From positions 62,001 through 126,000 of the forward strand of contig JANQEE010000049.1 of NCBI GenBank assembly GCA_028278525.1: DNA of 64,000 bases, read 5' to 3'. The translations under genes and the position numbers were made by a program. Every line of letters starts with the position of its first letter. The stretch's first letter is position 1. The notes beneath the pieces were generated by a model that searched no databases, was not told where the DNA came from, and saw nothing but the letters and a program-made list of their open reading frames with translations. Of the stretch, positions 10,090-26,691 are shown piece by piece. The stretch is from Minwuiaceae bacterium (GTDB lineage: Bacteria > Pseudomonadota > Alphaproteobacteria > Minwuiales > Minwuiaceae).

Positions 10090-10136
10090 GGTGTTCTCAA
10101 CTCCCCCGCTTGGTGTAACAGGACATCGTCCGCGGC

Positions 10137-10589
10137 TCAGCGCGTGATCGGCAGTTCCGGCACGACAGCGCCTTTAATGCTGCGGGAATGGCCCCGGAAC
10201 AGGGCGATCTTTTCGCCCTGTTCATTTGTGACCGTTACGTCGAAGGTCCCAGACCGTCCGGCGAAGGCGCGTTCTTCCGCTTCGGCGGTCAACAGGTCGC
10301 CGTTCCGCGCACCGGCGATGAAGGTGATTTCGGCGATATGGGCGACACTTACCTGGTTGTAGGAATTGCAGGCGTAGGCAAAGGCCGTGTCGGCCAGCGC
10401 GAACGTAAACCCGCCATGGCCGAGATCGTGCCCGTTTATCATGCCCGGACGCACCGGCATGGTCATTCGTGCATAGCCGGGGCGGATTTCCTTCAGTGTG
10501 ATGCCCAGGGATTGGGCGGCGATGTCGCGTTCGTACATCGCCTCGCCAACCGCCTCGGCAACATCGTTCGCCGATGCCTTGGCGCTCAC
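10137..10589 (-). CDS. paaI: Hotdog-fold acyl-CoA thioesterase PaaI
   Basis: 150-residue hotdog thioesterase that releases CoA from dead-end hydroxyphenylacetyl-CoA intermediates in the aerobic phenylacetate pathway. The PaaI pattern MINGHDLGHGGFTFALADTA with the active-site HGG region is present. The frame stays open upstream into the paaG gene, but the supported start is the GTG at 10589, placed two bases after the paaG stop and preceded by AAGGGA at suitable spacing; this gives the normal PaaI length. Confidence 0.92.
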   Translation of the reverse strand: MSAKASANDVAEAVGEAMYERDIAAQSLGITLKEIRPGYARMTMPVRPGMINGHDLGHGGFTFALADTAFAYACNSYNQVSVAHIAEITFIAGARNGDLLTAEAEERAFAGRSGTFDVTVTNEQGEKIALFRGHSRSIKGAVVPELPITR

Positions 10590-10590
10590 C

Positions 10591-11382
10591 TCAGCGTCCC
10601 TTGAAGTTGGGCGCCCGCTTCTCGAGAAAGGCGGCCACGCCTTCACCGAAGTCGTGGCTTCGGCCCAACTCGCGCTGGGAATCCCGCTCCAGGTCAAGCT
10701 GGCTGTCCAGGCTGTTGTCCCAGGCTTTGTGTAGCGCATGCCTGATCAGCCCCAGGCCCTTGGTCGGTCCGGCGGCGAGTTTGCTCGCCACCGCCATCGC
10801 TTCTTGGGAGAGGGCGTCGTCGTCGACGCATTTCCACACCAGGCCCCATTCGGCGGCGGTCTCCGCCGGCAGTTTCTCGCCCAGCAGGGCCATGCCGGCG
10901 GCGCGGGCGCGGCCGATCATCCGGGGGAGCATCCAAGTACTGCCGGCATCCGGCACCAGGCCGATATTGCAGAATGCCTGCAGGAAGCTGGCCGACCGGG
11001 CGGCCAGAATGATGTCGCAGGCCATGGCCAGGCTCATCCCGGCACCGGCGCAGGGGCCGTTTACGGCCGCAACAATCGGCATATTCAGGTCGCGCAGCGA
11101 CTTGATCAGCGGATTGTATTGCTCTTCCAAAGATAAGCCGAGATCCGGCGGACCGTCGCCGCGGGAACTGGCCCCATCCGCCAAGTCGGCGCCGGCGCAA
11201 AAGCCGCGCCCCGCGCCGGTGAACATCAGACACCGAACGTTGTCGTTGTTCGACGCGGTCGCGATGGCGTCACGCAGGTCTTCGTGCATCTGCCGGGTGA
11301 ACGCGTTCAGCCTGTCCGGCCGGTTCAAGGTGATCACGCCGACTTGGTCGACGGTCTCATAAAGGATTGTTTCGTAACTCAT
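10591..11382 (-). CDS. paaG: PaaG-type enoyl-CoA isomerase/hydratase, copy 1
   Basis: Crotonase-fold protein of 263 residues. CoA/oxyanion segments are GRGFCAGADLAD and NGPCAGAGMSLAMACDI. The residue after the second glycine-rich segment is the aspartate of LVPDAGSTWMLPRMIG, which is the PaaG-type catalytic acid, rather than the glutamates of hydratases. PaaG isomerises ring-1,2-epoxyphenylacetyl-CoA to the oxepin and shifts double bonds later in the pathway. It ends next to the paaI start and lies 3 bases behind a second, clearly related copy. The C-terminus of both copies is nearly identical (GVAAFLEKRAPNFKGR here). Confidence 0.9.
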   Translation of the reverse strand: MSYETILYETVDQVGVITLNRPDRLNAFTRQMHEDLRDAIATASNNDNVRCLMFTGAGRGFCAGADLADGASSRGDGPPDLGLSLEEQYNPLIKSLRDLNMPIVAAVNGPCAGAGMSLAMACDIILAARSASFLQAFCNIGLVPDAGSTWMLPRMIGRARAAGMALLGEKLPAETAAEWGLVWKCVDDDALSQEAMAVASKLAAGPTKGLGLIRHALHKAWDNSLDSQLDLERDSQRELGRSHDFGEGVAAFLEKRAPNFKGR

Positions 11383-11385
11383 ATT

Positions 11386-12186
11386 TCATCGTCCTTTGAA
11401 ATTGGCTTCGCGCTTTTGCAGAAATGCCGCCACGCCCTCGGCAAAATCGTGAGTAATGCCGGCCTTACGTTGAAAATCCCGCTCCAGATCGAGCTGCTGT
11501 TCCAGGGTGTTGTCGGGGGAGTGGGCGAGGGCCTGTTTGATCAGGCTCAGGCCCGCCGTCGGCCCCGTTGCGAGCCGCCCGGCAATCGCCTCGGCTTCCG
11601 CCGACAATCGGTCGTCGTCCACGCATTTCCAGATCATGCCCCATTCGACGGCCTGCTCGGCCGAGATGCGATCGCCGAAGAACGTCATGCCGTGCGCCCG
11701 CGACGGGCCGACATTGTGCGGAACCAGCCACGAACTGCCGAGGTCCGGCACGATGCCGAGTTGCGGGCCGAAGACCTGCATGAAGTAAGCGGAACGCCCC
11801 GCCACGACGATGTCCGCCGTCAGGGCCAGGCTCATGCCGCCGCCGGCCGCCGGGCCGTTCACCGCCGCGACGACGGGTATCCGCAGCGAATGCAGTCGCC
11901 GCACCATCGGATGGTATTCGTCCTCCATGGCGCGCGCGATGGCGGCGCCCCGGTCGCCGTCGGCTCCCGGACTGCCGGTTTCCGTAAGGTCAGCCCCGGC
12001 GCAAAAGCCGCGCCCGGCCCCGGTGATGAGCAGGCATCGGCAGTCGGGATCGCCGGCTATATCGTCCAATGCCGTACTGATATCGGCCCGCATCCGTGCG
12101 TTGAAGACATTCAGTACCTCAGGCCTGTTAAGCGTCAGAAAGGCAATGCCGCCAGCCTTCCGCAGCCTGATCGTGTCGAATTCCAT
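11386..12186 (-). CDS. PaaG-type enoyl-CoA isomerase/hydratase, copy 2
   Basis: 266-residue crotonase-fold protein, a diverged tandem duplicate of the following gene. It has GRGFCAGADLTE, NGPAAGGGMSLALTADI and the aspartate motif IVPDLGSSWLVPHNVG, so it too looks like an isomerase of the PaaG class. It is the first gene of the paaG-paaG-paaI-paaK-hydroxylase-DUF2783 operon, with palindromes in its upstream region. The pair may divide the PaaF/PaaG roles or act on different ring intermediates; sequence alone does not decide. Confidence 0.87.
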   Translation of the reverse strand: MEFDTIRLRKAGGIAFLTLNRPEVLNVFNARMRADISTALDDIAGDPDCRCLLITGAGRGFCAGADLTETGSPGADGDRGAAIARAMEDEYHPMVRRLHSLRIPVVAAVNGPAAGGGMSLALTADIVVAGRSAYFMQVFGPQLGIVPDLGSSWLVPHNVGPSRAHGMTFFGDRISAEQAVEWGMIWKCVDDDRLSAEAEAIAGRLATGPTAGLSLIKQALAHSPDNTLEQQLDLERDFQRKAGITHDFAEGVAAFLQKREANFKGR

Positions 12187-13570: not shown

Positions 13571-14272
13571 TCAAATGCCGAGGTAGCGGTGCTGAACGTC
13601 GCGGCTGGCGACAAGCTCGGGCGAAGAGCCGGTCCAGACCACCTGGCCTTTCTCGACGATAAAATGACGGTCCGCGATGCGTGTCAGCGCGTCGACGTTC
13701 TTGTCGATGACCAGGATCGACTGGCCCTCGGACTTCAATGCGCCGAGGCAGCGCCAGATTTCCGCCCGGATCATCGGCGCCAGGCCTTCGGTGGCTTCGT
13801 CCAGGATCAACAGGCGTGGGTTGGTCATCAGCGCCCGCCCGACCGCCAGCATCTGCTGCTCGCCGCCGGATAGCTGGTTGCCCATGTTATCGGCCCGCTC
13901 GGCCATGACCGGGAACAGATCGAACACCCGCTCCAGCGTCCACGGATCGTCGATTGCCGATCGATTGCCGGCGGTGGCGACAAGGTTCTCCCGCACTGTC
14001 AGATTGGGGAAGATCTGCCGGCCTTCCGGCACCAGGCCGATGCCGGCCTGCGCCACCTTGTAGGATGGCAGCTTCTGTATCTCCCGCCCGTGGAACGTAA
14101 CGGTGCCGGCGCGGGCCTGCGTCAGGCCCATGATCGACCGGACCGTCGTGGTTTTGCCCATCCCGTTGCGGCCCATCAGGGTGACCACCTCGCCCTGGCG
14201 GACCTCGAATTCCATGCCGAACAGAACCTGGCTCTGCCCGTAGGCGGTTTCCAGCGCGCGGACCTCAAGCAT
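13571..14272 (-). CDS. livF: LivF-type ABC transporter ATPase
   Basis: Second ATPase of a branched-chain amino acid type (HAAT) importer, 233 residues. Walker A is GRNGMGKTT, the signature LSGGEQQML and Walker B LLILDEATEGLAP. The EGLAP ending is characteristic of LivF rather than LivG. It overlaps livG by 8 bases. The cargo may not be an amino acid: this family often carries aromatic acids or amides when it sits beside catabolic genes, as here. Confidence 0.92.
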   Translation of the reverse strand: MLEVRALETAYGQSQVLFGMEFEVRQGEVVTLMGRNGMGKTTTVRSIMGLTQARAGTVTFHGREIQKLPSYKVAQAGIGLVPEGRQIFPNLTVRENLVATAGNRSAIDDPWTLERVFDLFPVMAERADNMGNQLSGGEQQMLAVGRALMTNPRLLILDEATEGLAPMIRAEIWRCLGALKSEGQSILVIDKNVDALTRIADRHFIVEKGQVVWTGSSPELVASRDVQHRYLGI

Positions 14273-15026
14273 GGCCGCCGTCCTGGTCGCCGAGATAGGC
14301 GGCCTTGACTTCCGGATTGACGCGAATCTCCTCCGGCTTGCCGGACGCGATGGCTCGACCGTAGACCAGTACGGTAATCCGGTCGGCCAACGCGAACACT
14401 ACATCCATGTCGTGCTCGATCAGCAGGATGGTATGCGACTCCTTCAACCGCCGAAGCAGGTCCACCATCCTGGCCGACTCGTCGGGGCCGGTGCCCGCCA
14501 TCGGTTCGTCCAGCAACAGCATGCTGGGCTTCGTCGCCAACGCCATGGCGATCTCAAGCTGTCGCTGTTCGCCGTGGGAGAGATTGGTCGCCTGCACATG
14601 CGCGCGGTCGCCGATTCCCACCATGTCGATGAAACCTTGCGCCGGTTCCGTCAGGCGGGTGTCCTTCCGGGCGTTCTTCCAGAACCGGTAGGAATGGCCG
14701 GCATGGGCCTGGATCGCCAGCGCGACGTTCTCCAAGGAGGTGAAGTCCGGCATGATGTTGGTGATCTGGAATGACCGCGCCAACCCGCGGCCGGAGCGTG
14801 TATGCACCGGCAGGTCAGTGATGTCTTCGCCGTCGAAGTGGATGCGGCCGGAATCCGGCGCCAACTCGCCCGTCAATTGGGCGATCAACGTGGTCTTGCC
14901 CGCCCCGTTCGGGCCGATGATCGCGTGCAGTTCGCCTCTCTCGATCTCCAGGCTAAGTTTGTCGGTCGCCGTCAGCCCGCCGAAGCGTTTGATCAGGTCG
15001 ACGGTCTGGAGATGCAGATTAGCCAT
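14265..15026 (-). CDS. livG: LivG-type ABC transporter ATPase
   Basis: 253-residue ATPase of the same importer. Walker A is GPNGAGKTT, the signature LSHGEQRQLEIAMALA, and Walker B LLLDEPMAGTGPDES, the LivG form. The conserved LARSFQITNIMPDFTSLENV Q-loop region is complete. It overlaps livM and livF by 8 bases on either side, which indicates a single translationally coupled operon. Confidence 0.93.
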   Translation of the reverse strand: MANLHLQTVDLIKRFGGLTATDKLSLEIERGELHAIIGPNGAGKTTLIAQLTGELAPDSGRIHFDGEDITDLPVHTRSGRGLARSFQITNIMPDFTSLENVALAIQAHAGHSYRFWKNARKDTRLTEPAQGFIDMVGIGDRAHVQATNLSHGEQRQLEIAMALATKPSMLLLDEPMAGTGPDESARMVDLLRRLKESHTILLIEHDMDVVFALADRITVLVYGRAIASGKPEEIRVNPEVKAAYLGDQDGGHA

Positions 15027-15984
15027 CGGCGCGTTGCCTCGGCCGCAGCAGCCCGTCGATGCCGCCGCGCGCGAACAATACGACCAGGATCAGGAGCGGC
15101 CCGAAATAAAGCTGCCAGGAAATGGTGATGCTGGACAGGATCTCCTCGACCAGCAGGAAGGCGACGGCGCCGACCAGCGGCCCGAATAGGGTTCCCATGC
15201 CGCCCAGCACCACCATGATGATCAGGTCGCCGGACCGGGTCCAATGCATCATGTCGGGACTGACGAAGTCGGTCTGGTTGGCCAGCAAAAAGCCAGCGAT
15301 GCCGCAGATCACGCCGGAGATCACGAATCCGGCCAGGCGGTAGGGAAAGGTCGGAAAGCCGATCGCCTGCATCCGCCGTTCGTTGGACCGGGCGCCCTGT
15401 ATCGCCAGCCCGAAGCGGGAATTGATGATGCGATGCACGGCGTACAGGCAAATCCCCAGCGTCACGAAATTGACGTAATACATGGCTGAGTCGCTGTTCA
15501 GATCCAGCAACCCCGCGAATTCGCTTCGGCCGTAGAGGCTCAGGCCGTCGTCCGCGCCGTAGATCTCGACGCCGACAGCGACGAAATACAGCATCTGCGA
15601 AAAGGCGAGGGTAATCATGATGAAATAGACGCCTTTGGTGCGCAGCGATATGGCGCCGATGATCAGCGCGAAGAACGCCGACACGAAAATTGCGGCGGGC
15701 AGTTGGAAAAATCCGCTCGCCATCCAATCGATCCCGTCTTCGATCGAATGGAATGAGCCGATCCCGACCATATAGGCGCCGATCCCGACAAAAGCGGCGT
15801 GGCCGAAACTGACCATGCCGCCATAACCCATCACCAGATTGAGGCCGATCGCCCCGATCGCCAGAATCAGCATCCGGGAGAACAGGACGATGTAGAAAGG
15901 CTCATCCAGCCAGGTCGCGATTGGCGGAACCAGCGCCAGGCTGGCCAGCAGGCCGATAAGCAGAACGATACGAAGGCGCGCCAT
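15019..15984 (-). CDS. livM: LivM-type ABC transporter permease
   Basis: 321-residue inner-membrane permease with about eight to ten hydrophobic segments. Family motifs are GLNLVMGYGGMVSFGHAAFVGIGAY near residue 48 and the late SNERRMQAIGFPTFPYRLAGFV coupling region, followed by FGPLVGAVAFLLVEE. It pairs with LivH to form the channel. livM starts 4 bases after the livH stop. Confidence 0.92.
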   Translation of the reverse strand: MARLRIVLLIGLLASLALVPPIATWLDEPFYIVLFSRMLILAIGAIGLNLVMGYGGMVSFGHAAFVGIGAYMVGIGSFHSIEDGIDWMASGFFQLPAAIFVSAFFALIIGAISLRTKGVYFIMITLAFSQMLYFVAVGVEIYGADDGLSLYGRSEFAGLLDLNSDSAMYYVNFVTLGICLYAVHRIINSRFGLAIQGARSNERRMQAIGFPTFPYRLAGFVISGVICGIAGFLLANQTDFVSPDMMHWTRSGDLIIMVVLGGMGTLFGPLVGAVAFLLVEEILSSITISWQLYFGPLLILVVLFARGGIDGLLRPRQRADG

Positions 15985-15988
15985 GTGG

Positions 15989-16912
15989 TCAGCCGTTACT
16001 GGGCGGGAACAGACCCGCCGGGCGGAAAGCGAGGATCGTCGCCATCAGCAGATAAATCAGCATCGACGACAGGGCCGGCGCGGCGGTATCGGCATACTGG
16101 TTGGACAGCACCAGCCCCAGGATATCTGGCAAAAAAGAACGTCCGACCGTGTCGATCAGGCCGACGATCAGCGCGGCGACAAAGGCGCCCCGCACCGACC
16201 CGATGCCGCCGATCACGATCACGACGAAGGCGAGGATCAGGATGCCTTCACCCATACCCGTCTCGACCGTGAAAATCGGTCCGGCCATAACGCCGGCAAG
16301 ACCGGCTAGCGCGGCGCCGAGCCCGAAAATCAGGGTGTAGAGCAGTTTGATGTCGACGCCGAGGGCACCGACCATTTCCCGGTTGGTCGCGCCGGCCCGT
16401 ATCAACATGCCGATACGCGTCTTGGCCACCAGGAAATAGAGTCCCAGGGCCACGGCGATGCCGGTCGCGATGATCATCACCCGATAGGTCGGGTAGGGGA
16501 CGCCCGGCAGGATCTCAAAATTGCTGTTGAGGAAGTCCGGCAGAGGCACGTCAAGGCCCGCCGGACCCCATACCAGGCGCACCGCTTCGTTGAAGAACAG
16601 GATCAGGCCGAAGGTGGCGAGTACCTGATCCAGGTGGTTCCTCTGATAGAGCGTTCGCAGGCAGATGACCTCGACGACGACACCGACCAGCAGCGTGGCC
16701 GGCACCGCCAGAAAAATCGCCAGAACAAACGATCCGGTCCAACTGGTGAAGGTGGCGGCAAAATAGGCGCCGACCATATAGAGCGACCCGTGCGCCAGGT
16801 TGACCAAATCCATGATGCCGAAGACGAGCGTCAGGCCAGCAGCGAGGAGGAACAGCAGAACGCCGAGCTGGACGCCGTTCAAAACCTGTTCCAGCAGCAG
16901 AATCCAATTCAT
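15989..16912 (-). CDS. livH: LivH-type ABC transporter permease
   Basis: 307-residue inner-membrane permease. It has the LivH pattern VLNGVQLGVLLFLLAAGLTL, then VFGIMDLVNLAHGSLYMVGAY, and the coupling segment TNREMVGALGVDIKLLYTLIF. The hydrophobic profile suggests eight or so membrane helices. It is separated from livK by a 90-base gap containing a strong stem-loop. That spacing is common in these operons, where the binding protein must be made in excess. Confidence 0.92.
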   Translation of the reverse strand: MNWILLLEQVLNGVQLGVLLFLLAAGLTLVFGIMDLVNLAHGSLYMVGAYFAATFTSWTGSFVLAIFLAVPATLLVGVVVEVICLRTLYQRNHLDQVLATFGLILFFNEAVRLVWGPAGLDVPLPDFLNSNFEILPGVPYPTYRVMIIATGIAVALGLYFLVAKTRIGMLIRAGATNREMVGALGVDIKLLYTLIFGLGAALAGLAGVMAGPIFTVETGMGEGILILAFVVIVIGGIGSVRGAFVAALIVGLIDTVGRSFLPDILGLVLSNQYADTAAPALSSMLIYLLMATILAFRPAGLFPPSNG

Positions 16913-16952
16913 GAGGCGCCGAAATGCTTTTGACTTCGAATACGGAACGGCA

Positions 16953-16987
16953 AACGGCGGGGCTGCGGCCAGCGCAGCCCCGCCGTT
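16953..16987 (-). other. Strong intercistronic stem-loop between livK and livH
   Basis: Perfect 15-base-pair inverted repeat (left arm 16953-16967, right arm 16973-16987) with a 5-base loop, lying 15 bases past the livK stop. On the transcribed strand it is not followed by a long U run, so it is more likely an mRNA-stabilising or partial-attenuation element than a full terminator. It would raise binding-protein output relative to the membrane genes. Function is inferred from position. Confidence 0.65.
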
Positions 16988-17002
16988 GAATGGACGATTG
17001 TC

Positions 17003-18175
17003 CTACCAGGACATCTTGCAGTCTTTGGCGTAGGTGTCCTGATGGTTTTCCAGTACGACACTGCGGATGCTGGTGGTGTAATTACCGTCCGCATCCTTCA
17101 CCGCTTCGCGAAGGTAGAAGTTCTGGATCGGGAAGTGGTTGTTGCCGTATTTGAACGGTCCGCGGACGGAATCGAAGTTCGCCTTGCGCATCGCGTCCCG
17201 CATGCCGTCACGGTTGCTCAGGTCGCCGTTGACAGCCGTCACGGCGCTGTTGATCAGCATCACCGTGTCGTACGACTGGGCGGCGTAGAAAGTCGGGTAC
17301 TCGCCGTACTTGGCGCGGTACGCCGCGACGAACTTCTTGTTCGCCGGAACGTCCAGATCGGGCGCCCAGAACATCGTGGCCAGGCTGCCGACGGCAAGAT
17401 CCTTCAGCAGATTGACCGTTACCGCGTCGACGGTGAAAACCGAATACAGCGGGATATTGTCTTTAAGGCCGGCCTGGGAATACTGATTGAAGAACTGCGC
17501 GCCGTGCTTACCCGGATAGAACACGAACACCGCGTCCGGCTTCGCCGCCCGCGCCTTGGCCAGTTCGGCCGAGAAGTCGAGCTGAGCCGGGAACTTGGTC
17601 ATATCTTTGCCGACGATCTCGCCCTTGTAGGTGCGTTCCACACCGGTGACCATGTTTTTGCCGGCCGCATAGTTGGGCGCCATGATGTACAGGCGCTTGA
17701 TGCCTTTTTGATTCAGCACTTCGCCCATCGCCATCGGAGTCTGGTCGTTCTGCCATGACGTGGAGAAAAAGTTCGGGTTGCACAGTTTGCCGGCAAGCGG
17801 CGCCGGTCCGGCATTGGAGCTGATCAGGAAGACATCGTTCTGCACCGCCGTCTTGTACGATGCCAATAACACGTGGCTCCAGATGAAGCCGGCAAGGAAG
17901 TTCACCTTGTCCTTCTTGACCAGCTTTTCCGCTTTTTGCTTGCCGATCTCCGGCTTGAAACCGTCGTCCTCGAAAATCACTTCGACTTCGACGCCGCCCA
18001 TTTTGCCGCCAAGTTCCTCGACCGCCAGTTCGACGGCCTGTTTCATGCCCTTGCCGAACACCCCAGCACCCGTGGTCAAGGTGGTCACGAAACCGATCTT
18101 GACCTTGTCTGCGGCCACAGCCGGTGCGGCCATCAGAGCAAGTGCTGACACAAGCCCAATCACTTTTCTTTTCAT
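17003..18175 (-). CDS. livK: Periplasmic substrate-binding protein, LivK/HAAT family
   Basis: About 390 residues with a clear Sec signal peptide (MKRKVIGLVSALALMAAPAVA, cut before ADKVKIG). The mature protein follows the type I periplasmic binding fold: VKIGFVTTLTTGAGVFGKGMKQAVELAVEELGG, then VNFLAGFIWSHVLLASYKTA and YYMAPNYAAGK-like central parts. Start ATG 18175 is fixed by the signal peptide. It is the first gene of livKHMGF. An AT-rich inverted repeat, matching one before marR, lies 125-144 bases upstream. The ligand is probably an aromatic or cyclic carboxylate, by context only. Confidence 0.9.
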   Translation of the reverse strand: MKRKVIGLVSALALMAAPAVAADKVKIGFVTTLTTGAGVFGKGMKQAVELAVEELGGKMGGVEVEVIFEDDGFKPEIGKQKAEKLVKKDKVNFLAGFIWSHVLLASYKTAVQNDVFLISSNAGPAPLAGKLCNPNFFSTSWQNDQTPMAMGEVLNQKGIKRLYIMAPNYAAGKNMVTGVERTYKGEIVGKDMTKFPAQLDFSAELAKARAAKPDAVFVFYPGKHGAQFFNQYSQAGLKDNIPLYSVFTVDAVTVNLLKDLAVGSLATMFWAPDLDVPANKKFVAAYRAKYGEYPTFYAAQSYDTVMLINSAVTAVNGDLSNRDGMRDAMRKANFDSVRGPFKYGNNHFPIQNFYLREAVKDADGNYTTSIRSVVLENHQDTYAKDCKMSW

Positions 18176-18299: not shown

Positions 18300-18319
18300 A
18301 TATTTTAAGTCTAAAATAT
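18300..18319. promoter_or_regulatory. MarR-type operator-like inverted repeat upstream of livK
   Basis: Perfect inverted repeat ATATTTTA-AGTC-TAAAATAT (8+4+8) in the region between livK and the end of the upstream catabolic operon. It matches 15 of 20 positions with the minus-strand sequence at 26691-26672 ahead of marR. Length, AT-rich arms and location are those of a MarR dimer site. Binding by the marR product at 26081-26599 is inferred. Confidence 0.6.
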
Positions 18320-18443: not shown

Positions 18444-19742
18444 TTAAGCGCGGCGGTCGGCGAATCTGGGCGCTTTGACGCTGGATTCGAATTCCGCCGC
18501 CAGGGTTCCGGAATCCAGCACGACGATTTCCGGGCTAACCTCAAAGGTTGCTTTTACGTCATTCGATACCCGTTCGCTGGCGGAGACCCGATCGGTGCCT
18601 GGCGCCACCTCGATGGAGAGACGCAGCAGATCCAGGTCCCGGTCCGTGACGATCTCGGCCTTGAAGTCGCTGACCTCCCGGTTGGCGAACATGAAGTCTT
18701 CGAATTCGGAATGATTGATATTTACGCCTCTGACCTTGAAGAACCCGGCCGTACGCTGTGCATGCTGTAGGATCGGAAACACCGACAGCGGGCCAGTGCC
18801 GGCCCCGTGATCCCGGTAGACGACAATGTCGCCGGAGAACCATCTCAGAAAAGGCGTGCAGTTGTTGGTGAACAGCGAGGTCACGATCAGCGCGCCGGGT
18901 TCGCCTTCCGCAACGGGCTCGTGCGTGTCCGGGTCCACGACTTCAATGTGGGCGAGGTCGGTCCAGATATGAAATCCGTCGTGAGCTTCCGATTCCGCGC
19001 CCATCATCGAAATTTCCGTCATCCCGAACGCGTCGAAGACGGTCGCCCCCCACATACGTTCCATTTTTTCCCGTTTCGCCATGGACAGCGGTTCCGCGGT
19101 GCACAGGATTCTGTCGACCGAGCCCTGCGTCAGGTCGATGCCGGAGGCTTCAGCCAGATTGGCAAGATGCAGTCCGTAGCTAGACATCCCCATCCACAGG
19201 GACGGTTGCAGCGAGGCGATCAGCTCAAGCTGCATGCGCGATGGGGCGGCCGCGCCGGAGCCGGCCCAGACCATGCCGATGCCCATCTGCTCTCCGGCCC
19301 GCGCCCACATATGGCCGGCCGGATGGATGCCGAGCGGGAAGGACAGATGGGCCGTTTCGCCCGCGCCGACGCCCATGCAAGCGAAGGTTCGGGTGAATCC
19401 CAGCATGGCGTAACGAATGTCTTCATAGGTGCGCGGATAGAACAACGGCCGGCCGGTCGAGCCGCCGGACCGCCAATACTCGGCGATCTCGGATTTCGGC
19501 GCGCTGCAGAAGTCGTTGTAGAAGGTGTCGTTCGAAAGGCCCCGCAGCATCTCTTTGTCGAGTATCGGGATCTTCGCCCATTCCTCCGGGTCTTCCAGCT
19601 TGGTGGTGTCGACGTGGCTTAATCGGTCCTTCCAGAAGGTCGATTGCTTGGCCCGTTCGACGGCCACGACTTTTCGTTCCCGTTGCAGGGCGGCGATTTC
19701 ATCGCGGGACTTGGGAATGGGGAGGGGGCTGACTTCCGACAT
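18444..19742 (-). CDS. PaaK-like adenylate-forming CoA ligase
   Basis: About 432 residues, distantly PaaK-like. Phosphate loop YWRSGGSTGRPLFYP near residue 110; later VFDAFGMTEISMMGAESEAHD and the hinge AGFFKVRGVNINHSEFEDFMF. The final conserved lysine region of PaaK is not obvious, so it could be a half-active adenylating enzyme or use a variant site. The open frame extends 63 codons upstream into the neighbour, but ATG at 19742 lies 4 bases after the previous stop and starts the family-like sequence. It is the last gene of the marR operon and gives that operon a second ligase besides the aryl-CoA ligase at 21805-23457. Confidence 0.85.
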   Translation of the reverse strand: MSEVSPLPIPKSRDEIAALQRERKVVAVERAKQSTFWKDRLSHVDTTKLEDPEEWAKIPILDKEMLRGLSNDTFYNDFCSAPKSEIAEYWRSGGSTGRPLFYPRTYEDIRYAMLGFTRTFACMGVGAGETAHLSFPLGIHPAGHMWARAGEQMGIGMVWAGSGAAAPSRMQLELIASLQPSLWMGMSSYGLHLANLAEASGIDLTQGSVDRILCTAEPLSMAKREKMERMWGATVFDAFGMTEISMMGAESEAHDGFHIWTDLAHIEVVDPDTHEPVAEGEPGALIVTSLFTNNCTPFLRWFSGDIVVYRDHGAGTGPLSVFPILQHAQRTAGFFKVRGVNINHSEFEDFMFANREVSDFKAEIVTDRDLDLLRLSIEVAPGTDRVSASERVSNDVKATFEVSPEIVVLDSGTLAAEFESSVKAPRFADRRA

Positions 19743-19746
19743 TGCG

Positions 19747-20754
19747 TCAGGTCTCCGGCTGTTTTCGCTGCGTCTGCAGTGCGCCGATCCATCGTCGCTG
19801 CGCCTCGTAGCTGGCCGGCAGGGCGCCCGCTTTTTCCGCTTCGACCATCTTGCCCAGGCGCTTTTCTTTCTCTGGCGTGGTCTCCGGAATGTCGTCCAGC
19901 ACATCCGACAGCGCCGCGTAATCCTTGCCAACCGGGCAGACGTCCTGACAGCGCCGGCAGCCGGTAACGACGCCGGAACCGCGCAGGATGGATTGCCAGA
20001 GATTAAAGCTGTCCTCCGACCGTATCAGTTCTTTCTGCTTTTCCGCGTCGGTCTCGTCCAAGATGCCGCCTAGATGTTCGGTAAGCTGCGCGAATCCGTG
20101 CGGCGACCGGTATCTGTCGCAGGCCGGCCAGTCCCGGTTCCAATGCCCGACGGTATCGCCGGGGCAGGTTTTCAGACAGCGGCCGCATTCCGGGCCCAGG
20201 CAGAGCGATGTCTCCATGCGTCGGTCGGGCTCGATGGGGACGGAACTGAGAACCGCGCCGATAATGACGCGCGGCCCGAATTCCGGCGTCAACAGTTGCA
20301 GGTTCAGGCCCAGCGTTCCGAGGCCTGCCTCGACCGCCGCGTGGTTGAGGGAGATCAGGGTCGACATATGCTCGTCCGGATCGTTGCGGTAGCGCCACGG
20401 ATCGACATGCGTCGGCGGCACGATGATCGCCGGATAGCCGTGATCTTCCAGCCAGTAGACGAGCTCAAGAGACGCTTCCTCCAGCCGCGTCAGGGCAAGC
20501 TCGTCGTTGTAATATTTATGCCGGTCGTTCCACGCCATGATGCGTGATGTGCCGGCAGAATAGCGTTTGGCCAAAACGATAACCCGGTCGGCGTCGTAAT
20601 CCGTGATGTCGGACGGCCGCCGCGGATTGTCGGGGTCCGGCGGGTTTTCGTCCATCACCTTGCCGTCGGCGATACCGACCAGGTCGGCACCCAGTTGCCG
20701 CGCCTTTTCCTTGACGGCATCCGCTGTTAGCGGCGCCTGAAATACCGCTACCAT
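19747..20754 (-). CDS. Reductive dehalogenase/QueG-like 4Fe-4S protein, copy B
   Basis: About 335 residues, soluble, no Tat signal. The N-terminal part has KARQLGADLVGIADGK and the central block VEAGLGTLGLNLQLLTPEFGPRVIIGAVLS, as in the cobalamin-binding half of QueG and reductive dehalogenases. It is followed by two cysteine clusters, CLGPECGRCLKTCPGD and GCRRCQDVCPVG, which suit two [4Fe-4S] centres. It lacks the C-terminal HEAT repeats of QueG and the membrane anchor partner of respiratory dehalogenases. It is a diverged tandem copy of the preceding gene (gap 21 bases). ATG 20754 is chosen; a GTG at 20766 is possible. Reaction unknown. Confidence 0.82.
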   Translation of the reverse strand: MVAVFQAPLTADAVKEKARQLGADLVGIADGKVMDENPPDPDNPRRPSDITDYDADRVIVLAKRYSAGTSRIMAWNDRHKYYNDELALTRLEEASLELVYWLEDHGYPAIIVPPTHVDPWRYRNDPDEHMSTLISLNHAAVEAGLGTLGLNLQLLTPEFGPRVIIGAVLSSVPIEPDRRMETSLCLGPECGRCLKTCPGDTVGHWNRDWPACDRYRSPHGFAQLTEHLGGILDETDAEKQKELIRSEDSFNLWQSILRGSGVVTGCRRCQDVCPVGKDYAALSDVLDDIPETTPEKEKRLGKMVEAEKAGALPASYEAQRRWIGALQTQRKQPET

Positions 20755-20775
20755 CGTGGACAACACTCCAACCGA

Positions 20776-21801
20776 TTACTGTTCCGCATCTTTCTCCGCC
20801 TGTTCGGCCATCGCCCGCTGCTTCTTTTTGAAGTCCTGCAATTGCCGGGCGACCATGCCTTGGTAGCCCTCGGGCCCGACCCACCGGACGTTCCAGTCGT
20901 TCAATCCGTCGACCGGATCGCCATTGCGCCGCGCTTCCTTGAACCCTTTGGCCTTCGCGACTTTCTCGTCGGTTTTCTCCGGTATCTTTTTCTGAATGTC
21001 GGCGAGATGGGCGTGATAGTCGTTGCCGACGGGACAGACGGCCAGGCAACGGGGGCAATCACCGAACGATCCGACGACTCGCAACAGACCCTGCCAGAAA
21101 CCGAAAAGTTCCCGGTCGACGATCATCTGGCGCTGCTCTTCCGCGTCGGCGTCGATGAACTTCTCCCAATATTTCAAGATGGTGGTGAAACCGAACTCCT
21201 GCGCTTCCTGTGCGCAGGCGCGCTTGTCGATGCCGAAATGGCGCACCGCGTCGGTCGGGCAGGAATATAGGCAGCGGCTGCAGGATTCGCCGATGCAGAC
21301 CTGTTCCGTAATCGGTGCATCCGCCTCCAGCTCCAGCTCGGTCAAGACGCCGGTCAGATAGATGCGCGGCCCGAATTCCGGTGTCAGGATATTGACCTCC
21401 AGGCCAAACGTGCCGAGGCCCGCTTCGATGCCCAGATGCCGTGTGCTTAAGCGGCCGTAGCTGGCGCGTTTGTAGTTCCAGTCGGTTTCCTGCGCCGCCG
21501 TCACGAAGGACGGGAAGCCGGCCTGTTCCAGCCGTTCGGCCAGGCGGTAGGAAACCTTGTCCATTTTGCGCAGCACCATCATATCCAGGTACTGGACCGG
21601 TACGTTCGATTTGCAACGGAAAGCGCCGACCGGGATTCGCTGCACCAGGACGATGACGCTTTTCACATGTGGCGAAATACGTTCCGGCGTTTGCGGAAAC
21701 CGCGGGTCGGGCGGAAAGGCGTTCAACGTCTTCGCGCTGGCGATACCGACCAGATCCGCGCCCAGATCAAGCGCCAGTTGTTTGACTTCCGCTGCTTCCA
21801 T
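20776..21801 (-). CDS. Reductive dehalogenase/QueG-like 4Fe-4S protein, copy A
   Basis: 341 residues. Same architecture as the following gene: LALDLGADLVGIASAKTL at the N-terminus, then RHLGIEAGLGTFGLEVNILT and the FGPR motif near residues 121-146, ferredoxin-like C169-x4-C174-x2-C177-x3-C181-P, and C249-x2-C252-x3-C256-P. These match the corrinoid/4Fe-4S reductase superfamily (QueG, RdhA). No signal peptide, so it acts in the cytoplasm. It starts 3 bases after the CoA ligase stop, so its substrate could be a CoA ester made by that enzyme. Cobalamin use and substrate are inferred, not shown. Confidence 0.83.
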   Translation of the reverse strand: MEAAEVKQLALDLGADLVGIASAKTLNAFPPDPRFPQTPERISPHVKSVIVLVQRIPVGAFRCKSNVPVQYLDMMVLRKMDKVSYRLAERLEQAGFPSFVTAAQETDWNYKRASYGRLSTRHLGIEAGLGTFGLEVNILTPEFGPRIYLTGVLTELELEADAPITEQVCIGESCSRCLYSCPTDAVRHFGIDKRACAQEAQEFGFTTILKYWEKFIDADAEEQRQMIVDRELFGFWQGLLRVVGSFGDCPRCLAVCPVGNDYHAHLADIQKKIPEKTDEKVAKAKGFKEARRNGDPVDGLNDWNVRWVGPEGYQGMVARQLQDFKKKQRAMAEQAEKDAEQ

Positions 21802-21804
21802 CGT

Positions 21805-23457
21805 TCAGCCCGCCGCTTCTTGCTCGCGCAGCACGAAGCGCTGAACCTTGCCTGTTTGCGTGCGGGGCAGGGCGTCGATGAATTCGATCTCGCGGGGATA
21901 TTTGTATGGTGCGATTTCTGCCTTTACGAAGTCTTGCAACTCTTTGACGGCGGCGTCGCCCGCATCCGATTTGTCGTTCAGCACGACGAAGGCCTTGACG
22001 ATCTGGCCGCGCTCCGCATTGGGTGCGCCGATTACCGCGCATTCCATCACCTTGGGATGATCCATCATGATTGCTTCCACCTCGGGCCCGGAGATGTTGT
22101 AGCCGGCGGAAACGATCAGGTCGTCGGTGCGGGACTGGTACCAGAAGTATCCGTCCTCATCCATCAGGTAGGCGTCGCCGGTATAGTTCCAGCCGTCTTT
22201 GACGTAGGTCGCCTGACGCTCCGCGTTGTCGAGGTAGCGGCAGCCGGTCGGGCCGCGCACCGCTAGACGGCCGACGGTGCCTGGCGGCACGTCGGCGCCG
22301 GTATCGTCGGCGATCCGCGCCTCGTAACCGGGGATCGCCTTACCGGTCGCGCCCGGGCGGATATCGTCGCCGGCCGTCGCGACGAAGATATGCAGCATCT
22401 CGGTCGCGCCCAGCCCGTCGATGATGCGAATACCGGTGGCGTCGGCCCAGCCTTTAAATGTCGGCAGCGGCAGGGTCTCGCCGGCGGAGACGCATTTCTT
22501 CAGGCTGGAAAGATCGTGCTCGCAGACCAACGGCGTCATTGCCCGATAGGCGACCGGTGCCGTGAACAGAATACTGACATTGTAGCGCGCCACGGTTTCG
22601 AGCGTGGTCTGCGGCGTGAATTGCTCGACCAGAACGGTCGAAGCGCCGACTTGCATCGGAAAGGTCACCAAGGCGCCGAGCCCGAAGGTGAAAGCGATCG
22701 GCGGGCTGCCAGTGAAAATATCGTCCGGCCCGGGCTTCAGCACATGGCGCGAGAATGTGTCGCCGATGGCCAGAATGTCCCGGTGAAAGTGCATGCAGCC
22801 TTTCGGGTCGCCCGTGGTGCCCGACGTGAAAGCGATCAGGCAGACGTCGTCGGCGGCTGTGTCGGCGTTTACGAAGGTTGCCGCCTTACTGGACATGCGC
22901 CCCTCCAGGCTGTCGGTATCGCCGTCACCGTTGAAATAGACCGCTTGTTTCAGGCTGGTTGACCGCTCGATGGCAGTTTCCATTTCCTCCGCCAGGCGCT
23001 TGTCGCACAGCGCCACCTCGATCTCGGCTTTCTCCGACATGAACTTCAGCTCGCGCCAGCGCAACAGCGGCATGGTGGCGACGGCAATGGCGCCGACCTT
23101 CATCACGGCGAACCAGCAGGCGACGTACATCGGGTTGTTCGGCGCGCGCAGCATGACCCGGTTGCCCGGTCGCACGCCCAAATCCTCGACCAGCACGTTG
23201 GCAATCCGGTTGGCACGCTCCAGCAGGTCGTCGTAGGTCCAGATATCGTCTCCGTAATAGAACACCGGGCGGTCGCCGTGTCGGCCGGCCTGCTTGTCCA
23301 GCAGTTCCGTCGCGCAGTTCATCTGTGCCGGATAGGCGGTAAGCTCAGGCAGGGTTTCGTAGGACATCGGCGCCCATTCGTCCTTGGGCGGCAGATGGTC
23401 GGTGGAGAAGGTATCGATATGCGCGGATATTCCGGTTGGTGCCCAGGGCTCAGACAC
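21805..23457 (-). CDS. Aryl-CoA ligase, 2-aminobenzoate/benzoate-CoA ligase type
   Basis: 550-residue AMP-dependent CoA ligase. The N-terminus (SAHIDTFSTDHLPPKDEW, LNCATELLD-like MNCATELLDKQ, GNRVMLRAPNNPMYVACWFA) resembles 2-aminobenzoate-CoA ligases as I know them. Core motifs are IAFTSGTTGDPKGCMH, DGLGATEMLHIF, WNYTGDAYLMDEDGYFWY and the C-terminal PRTQTGKVQRFVLRE with the catalytic lysine. GTG at 23457 overlaps the flavin oxidoreductase stop by 8 bases and starts the family N-terminus. It would activate a benzoate-like or cyclic carboxylic acid. Exact substrate is uncertain. Confidence 0.87.
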   Translation of the reverse strand: MSEPWAPTGISAHIDTFSTDHLPPKDEWAPMSYETLPELTAYPAQMNCATELLDKQAGRHGDRPVFYYGDDIWTYDDLLERANRIANVLVEDLGVRPGNRVMLRAPNNPMYVACWFAVMKVGAIAVATMPLLRWRELKFMSEKAEIEVALCDKRLAEEMETAIERSTSLKQAVYFNGDGDTDSLEGRMSSKAATFVNADTAADDVCLIAFTSGTTGDPKGCMHFHRDILAIGDTFSRHVLKPGPDDIFTGSPPIAFTFGLGALVTFPMQVGASTVLVEQFTPQTTLETVARYNVSILFTAPVAYRAMTPLVCEHDLSSLKKCVSAGETLPLPTFKGWADATGIRIIDGLGATEMLHIFVATAGDDIRPGATGKAIPGYEARIADDTGADVPPGTVGRLAVRGPTGCRYLDNAERQATYVKDGWNYTGDAYLMDEDGYFWYQSRTDDLIVSAGYNISGPEVEAIMMDHPKVMECAVIGAPNAERGQIVKAFVVLNDKSDAGDAAVKELQDFVKAEIAPYKYPREIEFIDALPRTQTGKVQRFVLREQEAAG

Positions 23458-24913
23458 GTGTCGTTTCCTTTTGTGTCGCGATAACGGTTTCCGGCAAGGG
23501 CATGTCCACGGTGACGGTGTTGGATGGCGTGCTGGCACGTCCGTTCGCGTCGAAGGCGCGTACATAGTAGCGGTAGGTCAAGCCGCCGAGCACCAGTCGG
23601 TCGACATATTTGTTGGATTTCACGGCTTCGGCGACCACGGCGGACTCGTCGTCCTCTGCCCTATAGACGTCGAAGCCGATGATCCCGCCGGCCGGCGGCC
23701 GGTTCCAACTCAGTTTGATCTGCCCGCCCTCGACAGTGGCCGCCAATGCCGCGCCGTCCGGACCCCATTGCGGGTTCTTGCCGTTCGGGTCGTCGGGCGG
23801 GGCCTGCCGGGCGCCTTTCGGCCACAGAAAGCAATGGACTTCCTTGAACTTCTCGTCCAGTTGCTTGCAGACGTTGCAATAGATGCAATGCACGATCTGA
23901 TCGCGGCGGTCCTGCTCGATCTTCTTGACCCAGTCCGGGTCGGACAGCAATTGTCGCGCCATACCGATGATGTCGGCCCGGCCGCTTTGCAACAAGCCTT
24001 CTGCGTCGTCCGGTTTGCTTATCTTGCCGATAGAAATCACCGGGACGTGATAGCCTTTACCGTTTATGTATTCCTTAACGCCCGCCGCCAGATGCGCATG
24101 GGGCAGGGGCGGGTACCAGTCGCCCGGCATGCAGCGGTCCCCGGAATAGCCGGTATAGGGGTAGAGCGGGTGCCCCTCGCGATGGATCGCATCCTCGAAC
24201 TTGCCGCCGACCGAGAGCGAAATGTAGTCTGCGCCCATCTGTGCCATGCGCAGCGCGATGCGTTTCGATTCCTCCAGGGTATAGCCGTCCTTGACCGCTT
24301 CCTCCGCCAGGAAACGCACGCCGACCGGAAAATCGCTGCCGACCTGCCGCCGAACTTCGCTCATGACCCGGCCGAACATGGCAAGCCGGCCTTCCAGGGT
24401 GCGGCCCGAAAACGCATCGCGCCGGCGGTTATGGCGGGACAGGAAGGAAGACAGCGTATAGGCGTGGGCTGAGTGCAGTTCGATCCCGTCGTAGCCGGCT
24501 TCCCGCGCCCGCGCCGCCGCCGCGCCGAACTGGCCGATGATGGTCTCGATATCCTCTGCCGACAGATCCTCGATCCGCTGCCGCCAGCCGGACCGCGCCA
24601 CCTTCAGGAAATGGATGATCTGCGGCACGATTTTGGAATCCGACGTGTCGTGCACTTGTTTCGTCAACTCGCAGTGACCGGGAATGAACTCATCGTCGGA
24701 GATCCTGAGCAACGGGCCGGACTTGTTGCCGTGCACCGCCATCGCCTCAACCACGATCAGCCCGACATGGCCGGCGGCGTATCGCACGTAGCGGTCGATG
24801 ATATCCTGGTTGACGTGTCCGTCCTCGCCGGAAAGGCGCGTCACCATGGCCGGCACGGCCACCCGGTTCGGCAGCACCATGCCGTTGATGTCCAACGGGG
24901 TCAGCAGCTTCAT
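23450..24913 (-). CDS. Old Yellow Enzyme-type NADH:flavin oxidoreductase fused to a fibronectin-III domain
   Basis: 487 residues. Residues 1-340 form a complete FMN-binding TIM barrel of the 2,4-dienoyl-CoA reductase/TMADH class ([37 protein letters not shown]). Cysteines C343, C346, C349 and C361 follow in the position of that class's [4Fe-4S] site, spaced Cx2Cx2Cx11C. The C-terminal FAD/NAD domains of the class are absent. Instead residues 388-470 are a recognisable fibronectin type III domain ([18 protein letters not shown] ... [18 protein letters not shown]). Stops and starts overlap both neighbours. Likely reduces an unsaturated CoA ester, with electrons from a separate partner. Confidence 0.87.
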
Positions 24914-26088
24914 TTGCCGAGGCCCTGGTTGAAGTTATCCAGGGTCGCCCGGGCGATCACCATCTGATTGATCTCCGTCGTGCCCTCGTAGATGCGCAGG
25001 GCGCGCACTTCGCGGTAGAGCTGTTCGACCGGCATGCCGGAGACGACGCCGGTTCCGCCGAACAATTGCACCGCCTTATCGACGACGCGCTGTGCGGCCT
25101 CGGTCGCGTACATCTTGGCCATGGAGGCCTCGCGCGTGACCCGGGCCTGGCCGGAATCCTTGGTCCAGGCGGCGCGGTAGATCAGAAGCGCCGCGGCGTC
25201 GATTTCCGTTGCCATATCGCCCAGCTTCGCCTGGGTCAGTTGGAATTCGGAGAGCTTCTGGCCGAATACCTCGCGATCCTGAGTGCGCCGCAAGGCCTCG
25301 TCGAGCGCCCGTCGGGCGAAACCCAGCGCGGCGGCGCCGACGGAGGAACGGAAGACATCGAGGTTGGACATCGCGATCTTGAAGCCTTCGCCGGGCTGAC
25401 CGATCAACCGGTCCTTCGGGATGCGGCAATCCTGGAAGCTCAGCGTGCCTAGCGGATGTGGCGCGATGACATCGATCCGCTCGCTCACGCTGAAGCCCGG
25501 GTCGCCGGCCTCGACGATGAAGGCACTGATGCCCTTGGTGCCTTTCTCCGGATCGGTCACGGCGAACACCGAATACTGGTCGGCGATGCCGGCGTTTGAA
25601 ATCCAGGTTTTCGTGCCGTTCAACACCCATGAATCGCCGTCTTCGACGGCACGTGTCTGCATCGCCGCAACGTCGGACCCGGCGTTCGGTTCCGACATGC
25701 CCAGCGCCGCGATGCGCTTACCCGCGGCAACGCCCGGCAGGTAGGTCTCGCGCTGCGCCTCGGTGCCGAACTGCGATATCGGGCCCGATCCGAGCCCCTG
25801 CATGACGAACGCGAAGTCGGCCAAGCCGTCCTGGTAGGCCAGGGTCTCTCGCGCCAGGCAGAGCGAGCGCACGTCGACCCGCTCGAACAGGCCGCCGTGC
25901 GGCGCCGGCACTGTGTAGCGCAGGTAACCGGCCTCGCCGAGGCGTGTGACCAGCGACCGCGCGGCGCCGTCCAGGTCGTCGTGCGGATGCCCGGCCAACT
26001 CTTGTTCCGCAAACACCCGCAGTTCGGCGGCGAAGCGGCGGTGGCTGTCGTCGAAGAACGGCCAATCCAGAAAGCTGCGGTCAGCCAT
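24910..26088 (-). CDS. Acyl-CoA dehydrogenase
   Basis: 392-residue FAD enzyme of the acyl-CoA dehydrogenase family. Signatures are [20 protein letters not shown], the WISNAGIAD region, [21 protein letters not shown] and, at the end, [17 protein letters not shown], whose glutamate is the catalytic base position. It oxidises a saturated acyl-CoA, possibly a ring-carboxyl-CoA. Start overlaps the marR stop by 8 bases and stop overlaps the next start by 4 (ATGA), so it is firmly in the operon. Confidence 0.92.
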
Positions 26089-26599
26089 TGTCCGACTCCT
26101 CGATTCCGTTGAGCGATGTTTTCAGCCGGCCGAGCAAGTCGAGCAGGTTCTGCATCTCCTGACGGCCCAGGCCTTCCAGCGCGTCCTCGACCCAGCTTTG
26201 ATGAGCCGACGCCATTTCGTCGAAGACCTTCTTGCCGACCGCGGTCAGTCGCACTCGCTGGGTGCGGCGATCCTGCGGCGCCGGCGTGCGGCTCACCAGG
26301 CCTTCCTGGGTCAGGCGTTCGATCAGGCCGGTGATGTTGCCGGCCGACACCATCAGCCGACCGGACAGGTCGCCCATGGTCAGGCCGTCCGGCGACCGGT
26401 TCAGTTGGGCCAGCACGTCGAAGCGGGGCAGGGTGATGTCGAAATCGTCGCGCAGCCGGGCCCGGATGCGCTTTTCCAGCAGGGTCGAGCAGGTCAGCAG
26501 CCTGAGCCACACCCTGAGTTCGAGTTTGTCGCCCATATGCAGGGCCGTCTCGAAGTCCCTCGGCGGCGCGGTAACGGACTCGCTTTGCGGGTCTGACAT
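26081..26599 (-). CDS. MarR-family transcriptional regulator
   Basis: 172 residues. The winged helix covers about residues 52-130, with [32 protein letters not shown] as recognition helix region and the wing [19 protein letters not shown]. It is the first gene of the operon that runs to 18444. An inverted-repeat-like site lies 73-92 bases before its start, consistent with autorepression relieved by an aryl-CoA, as known for other MarR regulators of aromatic catabolism (BadR, CouR). Ligand not determinable. Confidence 0.93.
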
Positions 26600-26671: not shown

Positions 26672-26691
26672 TTATTTCAAGCTTAAAGTAT
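26672..26691. promoter_or_regulatory. MarR-type operator-like site upstream of marR
   Basis: Read on the minus strand this is ATACTTTAAGCTTGAAATAA, with a palindromic AAGCTT core and imperfect arms. It matches 15 of 20 positions with the perfect repeat before livK at 18300-18319. The surrounding 30 bases are AT-rich against a GC-rich background, as in a promoter. It probably overlaps the marR operon promoter. Regulator binding is inferred. Confidence 0.6.

Follow-up and report, generated by a model that had tools for sequence, protein, structure and literature searches.

Which pathway would bring a pair of QueG/RdhA-like iron–sulfur proteins together with two CoA ligases is the question raised by a seven-gene operon of a Minwuiaceae bacterium, located in a 64-kb stretch of contig JANQEE010000049.1 (the whole of this stretch is referred to below as the window, and coordinates are those of the window). 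A first-pass annotation had read these genes as a MarR-controlled, reductive and CoA-dependent route for a ring acid. The analysis presented here indicates that the operon joins genes for the degradation of anthranilate, a product of tryptophan breakdown, to a reductase pair. The pair probably gives ring acids a reductive side route, which an aerobic oxygenase pathway would then complete.

The operon lies on the minus strand and begins with marR (26081..26599), which encodes a MarR-family regulator (PF12802/PF01047). This is followed by acad (24910..26088), for an acyl-CoA dehydrogenase of the type found in anthraniloyl-CoA operons (PF00441 and others); OYE-FN3 (23450..24913), for an Old Yellow Enzyme (OYE) with an FMN barrel (PF00724, E 5e-47), a C-x2-C-x2-C-x11-C motif of 4Fe-4S type and a C-terminal FN3-like domain; and bcl (21805..23457), for an AMP ligase of the anthranilate/benzoate-CoA ligase type. 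The next two genes encode QueG/RdhA-like [4Fe-4S] proteins designated subunits A and B, namely qA (20776..21801), of class III B12 type, and qB (19747..20754, with an alternative start at 20766), and the last one, paaK-like (18444..19742), encodes the PaaK-type AMP ligase that is the partner of qA/qB. Neighboring reading frames overlap in the first half of the operon (marR/acad by 8 bp, acad/OYE by 4 bp, OYE/ligase by 8 bp) and are separated by short gaps in the second (3 bp between bcl and qA, about 20 bp between qA and qB, and 4 bp between qB and paaK-like). Genes were called from open reading frames (ORFs) and coding potential, and families were assigned with Pfam and NCBIfam; the ORFs, gene calls and families of the earlier annotation were borne out, with the corrections given below. 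That the seven genes belong to one operon is well supported.

Judged by sequence, marR, acad, OYE-FN3 and bcl are the genes of a MarR-controlled anthraniloyl-CoA operon. A complete operon of this kind, built around 2-aminobenzoyl-CoA monooxygenase/reductase (ABM, a monooxygenase–OYE fusion), was found in genome G079 (locus L138), where ABM is followed by bcl, OYE, acad, an enoyl-CoA hydratase gene, marR and a short-chain dehydrogenase/reductase (SDR) gene, with a divergent RidA gene beside them; identities to the window proteins are 62% for the ligase, 40% for OYE, 65% for the dehydrogenase and 61% for MarR. In a partial operon of genome G122 (L168), ABM is followed by bcl (61%), OYE-FN3 (72%) and acad (68%), and the OYE-FN3 there is a full-length relative with the same architecture and the same four cysteines as the window protein. 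The earlier view that such a gene set is foreign to the 2-aminobenzoyl-CoA pathway is thus not supported, since marR, acad and the ligase are 61–65% identical to those of the L138 operon and OYE-FN3 stands beside ABM in L168. The same L168 protein disposed of the idea that OYE-FN3 is unique to the window. With regard to the FN3 fusion itself, the Pfam fn3 match of the window OYE is weak (E 0.0046) and under the cut-off, whereas the same C-terminal domain is kept in the 72% identical relative. Among solved structures, the window bcl product is closest to anthranilate-CoA ligase 4wv3 (320 bits), followed by benzoate-CoA ligase 2v7b (259 bits). ABM was found neither among the seven operon genes nor anywhere else in the 64-kb window; the ABM of the window genome lies on another contig (G000:C18:15111-17396), with 1203.8 bits against a cut-off of 1078.

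The other half of the operon is headed by the two reductase-like genes. In profile searches, both proteins matched structures of QueG and RdhA, qA with E 1.5e-12 for QueG (5d08) and 1.2e-10 for RdhA (8q4h). The AlphaFold2 (AF2) model of qB, with a predicted local distance difference test score (pLDDT) of 88, aligned with Z scores of 18.1 to RdhA, 17.5 to QueG and about 10 to the B12 chaperone MMACHC, and Foldseek retrieved the same folds for the qA model. Each protein has eight cluster cysteines, corresponding to two [4Fe-4S] sets, which are conserved among 60 qA sequences and invariant in qB. A tyrosine of active-site type is also kept (Tyr71 in 57 of 60 qA and Tyr82 in 49 of 53 qB sequences), in line with the tyrosine above the corrin that is common to QueG and RdhA (for its role, see PMC4646009). 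At the positions of the QueG D-Y-H motif, this tyrosine is aligned in both proteins, its neighbors reading Q-Y-x-D in qA and Y-N-D in qB, and the position of PceA Arg305 carries Tyr148 in 57 of 60 qA sequences and Met, Ile, Leu or Val in qB, with no basic residue. Scores stayed far under the cut-offs of both the QueG family (TIGR00276; 51.0 bits for qA and 45.8 for qB, cut-off 200) and the reductive dehalogenase family (TIGR02486; 38.8 and 30.5 bits, cut-off 160.35). A role as the tRNA enzyme QueG was rejected, as a separate, true QueG above the cut-off was present in 10 of 10 qA genomes checked. Because the family cut-offs are missed, an Arg305 equivalent is absent and true QueG is separate, qA/qB would be QueG/RdhA-like proteins, class III by fold, outside both known families. 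The earlier description as a corrinoid/4Fe-4S-type reductase pair is supported, with the correction that both proteins score far under the QueG and RdhA cut-offs. Distances between qA sequences correlate with those between the corresponding qB sequences (r 0.80); the two proteins are predicted to bind cobalamin and may form one enzyme.

In order to follow this pair through other genomes, a locus set was used that comprised 80 loci from a contig scan (Alpha-, Beta- and Gammaproteobacteria, plus some labeled otherwise) together with loci from a class sample of 289 genomes. Each of the 87 loci with both genes had qA and qB side by side, without a change in strand or order, and the next gene after qB was that of a PaaK-like ligase in 57 of the 81 loci with room for it, an arrangement beyond chance. 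The window PaaK-like ligase has 137.3 bits, not reaching the PaaK cut-off of 646.3, and its nearest solved relative is 2y27 (117 bits). Loci lacking the PaaK-like gene often have a different AMP ligase in its position, for instance that of cluster 12 (L037, L122-L125), whose nearest solved relative is likewise anthranilate-CoA ligase (394 bits, versus 370 for benzoate-CoA ligase). Liv genes (livH at 50% identity or more) were present in 16 of 88 qA/qB loci. The co-occurrence of ligase, OYE-FN3 and both reductases anticipated by the first-pass annotation thus held in part: the reductases were always paired and usually accompanied by the PaaK-like ligase, whereas the other ligase, acad and marR were present at few qA/qB loci and OYE-FN3 at none besides the window, because these four genes are part of the ABM operon, which usually lies elsewhere in the genome. 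Carriers include the cultured Tateyamaria sp. ANG-S1 and Amorphus coralli DSM 19760. In a phylum-wide sample of 398 genomes, qA was found in the window's own genome only, and no plasmid record matched qA over 80% of the query, the only plasmid matches being distant ones of less than 60% identity. No description of QueG-like proteins with aryl-CoA ligases was found in the open-licence literature, and qA, qB and paaK-like constitute a separate, conserved and apparently undescribed module.

Several further genes were observed around this module. A third QueG-like protein of 305 aa and a 108-aa partner without a Pfam match are encoded beside the PaaK-like gene in L051 (13284-14527) and also in L053, L056, L058 and L083. 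PaaA/PaaC-family di-iron proteins, well under the PaaA cut-off, lie near qA/qB in three unrelated settings (L107:16861-17592, L113:6493-7251 and L037:9005-9781). Of the 12 loci with a transglutaminase-core protein (L039:4723-5481 and relatives), 8 have its gene immediately before qA. Finally, L091, titled Candidatus Dependentiae (a 1.1-Mb assembly), has a typical proteobacterial qA-qB-paaK-liv locus and is probably a mis-binned contig.

A link between both halves of the operon and ABM was provided by a shared operator-like palindrome. An 18-bp copy, TATTTCAAGCTTAAAGTA (26673..26690), lies upstream of marR and agrees at 16 of 18 positions with the consensus TATTTTAAGCTTAAAATA; another, TATTTTAAGTCTAAAATA (18301..18318), lies between paaK-like and livK, upstream of the latter. 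The consensus has exactly these two matches in the window and none in 100 shuffles, and TATTTTAAGTCTAAAATA recurs identically 62 bp upstream of the distant ABM of the same genome. The livK gene (17003..18133, minus strand; periplasmic binding protein, PF13458) is the first of a Liv-type ABC transporter operon (13571-18133) directly downstream of the seven genes, which continues with livH (15989-16912), livM (15019-15984), livG (14265-15026) and livF (13571-14272), all on the minus strand and encoding the permeases and ATPases of an importer, and which would belong to the same putative regulon. In other loci, sites with at least 14 of 18 matches were located before qA (L055), before paaK and a divergent TetR-qA operon (L094, L101), before paaK, livK and marR (L089), before OYE (L065, L067) and before ABM (L055, L094, L137, L142, L143). 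With the training loci (window and L138) left out, because the consensus was built partly from the same promoters, the palindrome was present in 11 of 95 target regions versus 6 of 567 other intergenic regions, with 0.1 expected in shuffles. Among additionally fetched loci, which partly overlap with those already counted, it preceded ABM in at least 10 of 20 cases and was seen in 1 of 8 kynureninase loci; it was present in none of 12 box loci. A first operator candidate, TTG-N8-CAA, was rejected since it occurred at chance level. We infer that MarR binds the palindrome.

The same link was observed in gene neighborhood and genome content. Full-length ABM or abm genes lie inside seven qA/qB loci (L055, L059, L066, L074, L094, L101 and L115), while L073 has only the monooxygenase half; by a rough estimate, chance would account for about 0.4 such cases. 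In the class sample, counted without phylogenetic weighting, the 11 genomes with qA span eight families and all have ABM, versus 53 of 289 genomes overall (Fisher P 3e-9); three of the ABM copies behind the latter number are incomplete or score below the cut-off. ABM was also present in 48 of 50 further qA/qB genomes, and hence in 59 of 61 carriers; many of the genomes counted are metagenome-assembled genomes (MAGs) of unknown completeness. BoxB, the benzoyl-CoA epoxidase, showed a similar profile: it was present in 10 of 11 and 46 of 50 qA genomes, whereas the whole class sample had it in 54 of 289 and the ABM genomes lacking qA in 19 of 42. With both ABM and BoxB frequent, carriers tend to hold both the anthraniloyl-CoA and the benzoyl-CoA route. 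Two other assignments were rejected. A tie of qA/qB to kynurenine catabolism was given up and kynureninase kept as a local association only: in the class sample, 10 of 11 qA genomes have this enzyme, but in the other set it is present in 31 of 50, which does not exceed its frequency in ABM genomes generally; and anaerobic ring reduction was discarded, as ATP-dependent benzoyl-CoA reductase was present in only 3 of 11 qA genomes.

In addition, homologues of RdhA above the TIGR02486 cut-off are encoded directly after qB in three loci (L089:12048-13406, L094:12047-13405 and L045:6862-8130). A further RdhA homologue, 78% identical to the L089 protein, lies directly upstream of ABM with the palindrome between the two (L189:11845-13332), and a Defluviicoccus MAG encodes a reductive dehalogenase above the cut-off (201.5 bits) at a distance of some 5 kb from its qA (L048:3698-5002), with similar genes in L049, L054 and L064. 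With RdhA homologues next to qA-qB or ABM, B12-type reductive chemistry is recurrent in the qA/qB-ABM setting.

Taken together, the reading to which we give somewhat better than even chances is that an anthraniloyl-CoA operon has a second module attached, whose qA/qB pair reductively strips a ring substituent from a CoA-activated acid, the product entering the ABM or the Box route. The first module (marR, acad, OYE-FN3, bcl) would convert anthranilate to 2-aminobenzoyl-CoA, ABM, encoded elsewhere under the same palindrome, would hydroxylate and reduce the ring, and the first module would help to process the ring afterwards. The second module (qA, qB, PaaK-like ligase and Liv-type importer) would take up a related ring acid and convert it to its CoA thioester, from which qA/qB, acting as a two-subunit class III reductase with cobalamin and two [4Fe-4S] clusters, would remove a hydroxyl, halide or amino group reductively; the stripped product would then enter the ABM or the benzoyl-CoA (Box) route. 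Here, both the substrate and the bond cleaved are predictions. The CoA-dependent route for a ring acid proposed by the first-pass annotation is supported. Its other proposal, a reductive route, is retained as far as the corrinoid/4Fe-4S-type reductase pair is concerned, and of the reactions it named, dehalogenation or dehydroxylation may apply; a purely oxygen-independent pathway is unlikely, because the oxygenase ABM appears to belong to the same regulon.

Several observations weigh against this proposal. The enrichment of BoxB equals that of ABM, which would also be compatible with benzoyl-CoA as the product, and genomes rich in aromatic pathways may inflate the co-occurrence. The qA model is of moderate quality only (pLDDT 70). 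The lack of a basic residue at the PceA Arg305 position means that plain dehalogenation is not indicated, and class III cobalamin enzymes have no distinct binding motif (PMC4646009). Moreover, most qA/qB loci have no upstream palindrome with 14 or more matches of 18.

The alternative that survives best, although we consider it rather improbable, is that qA/qB is a reductive deaminase that converts 2-aminobenzoyl-CoA to benzoyl-CoA for the Box pathway. In that case qA/qB would encode the 2-aminobenzoyl-CoA reductase whose activity has been reported for anaerobic Azoarcus evansii (review PMC4539516) and for which no gene assignment was found in the open-licence literature. The near-constant presence of both ABM (48 of 50) and BoxB (46 of 50) in qA/qB genomes, compared with BoxB in only 19 of 42 ABM genomes without qA, is in favor of this enzyme. 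Kynureninase, the comparison family, is not enriched beyond ABM genomes in the 50-genome set (31 of 50). An anthranilate-CoA-type ligase directly upstream of qA in the window would supply its substrate, and anthranilate-yielding arylformamidase and kynureninase genes follow qA-qB-paaK in L061, with kynureninase also near in L075, L077 and L086. By contrast, neither the palindrome nor qA/qB was found near box genes in 12 box loci, genome G157 has qA/qB and ABM without BoxB, the oxygen required by Box leaves little evident gain over ABM, and a separate PaaK-like ligase would be superfluous. Removal of a substituent with entry into either route is preferred over dedicated deamination.

Less probable again is a QueG-like repair enzyme that removes oxygen from an epoxide or an over-hydroxylated by-product of aryl-CoA oxygenases (ABM, Box, PaaA-like). 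QueG does reduce an epoxide (PMC4646009), ABM forms 5-hydroxyanthraniloyl-CoA when NADH is short (PMC3534580), PaaA-family di-iron proteins are present in several qA/qB loci and Box genes co-occur with the pair; yet a repair function would have no use for a dedicated ligase and importer, and the QueG D-Y-H motif is kept in part only. We give slightly less weight still to qA/qB as electron carriers without cobalamin that feed OYE-FN3: the eight cluster cysteines in each protein and the FN3-like end of OYE-FN3, where its relatives carry a reductase domain, would suit this role, but nearly all qA/qB loci are without OYE-FN3, which occurs apart from qA/qB in G122, and the B12-type domain and its tyrosine are conserved. 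An accidental joining, in the window genome, of the anthranilate operon to a reductase module with no functional tie to it, suggested by the separation of the two modules in most other genomes, is very improbable in view of the shared palindrome, ABM in 59 of 61 carriers and repeated independent neighborhoods.

Beside the liv operon, the window also contains a phenylacetate-type block (8773-12186) with PaaK above the cut-off (713.5 bits), a PaaI thioesterase, a further enoyl-CoA hydratase and PaaG, the last also above its cut-off (376 bits), adjoined by the gene for a FAD-dependent hydroxylase of the PRK08132 subfamily (7026-8738; 753.8 bits, cut-off 416).

In the literature consulted, the class III B12 enzymes comprise only two groups of described function, the reductive dehalogenases and QueG (PMC7585037, PMC4646009), and further families may exist according to the QueG structure paper (PMC4646009). 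qA/qB is a strong candidate for such a family. Its regulation and genome content tie the conserved pair to a named pathway and narrow the substrate search, and the cultured relatives carrying it make the system testable. If qA/qB acts on aryl-CoA esters, B12-dependent reductive chemistry would operate inside aerobic aromatic catabolism, and the pair could supply the gene for the reported reductive deamination activity. More tentatively, and with the balance of probability against it, qA/qB might add a third function to the class III cobalamin enzymes, as an aryl-CoA reductase of two subunits that is found in aerobes and reductively takes an amino group, a hydroxyl group or a halogen off a benzoate activated with CoA. 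The pair might even be responsible for reductive deamination of 2-aminobenzoyl-CoA to benzoyl-CoA.

The operon can be compared with several known systems. qA/qB shares its fold, two [4Fe-4S] motifs and the active-site tyrosine with QueG, the tRNA epoxyqueuosine reductase, but is an obligate two-gene pair beside a CoA ligase and under the family cut-off. Similarly, it resembles RdhA (PceA, NpRdhA) in fold (Z 17–18 for qB), tyrosine and cluster motifs, and differs in its sub-threshold family score and the missing basic residue of PceA. OYE-FN3 has the FMN barrel and cysteine motif of the 2,4-dienoyl-CoA reductase/BaiCD/naphthoyl-CoA reductase group, with an FN3-like C-terminus instead of the FAD/NAD(P)H domain. 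Like the deaminating 2-aminobenzoyl-CoA reductase of A. evansii, qA/qB would be able to use the product of the bcl ligase and to yield benzoyl-CoA, and most carriers have Box genes. With respect to the aerobic 2-aminobenzoyl-CoA (anthranilate) pathway of A. evansii (Schuhle et al. 2001, reviewed in PMC4539516), the ABM of the window genome differs in lying on a separate contig, and OYE-FN3 and the qA-qB-PaaK module are additions of the window that the reviews consulted on that pathway do not mention; in common with it, the window genome combines an anthranilate-CoA-type ligase and an acyl-CoA dehydrogenase with an ABM in the same putative regulon, in a gene order that matches the complete ABM operons of relatives.

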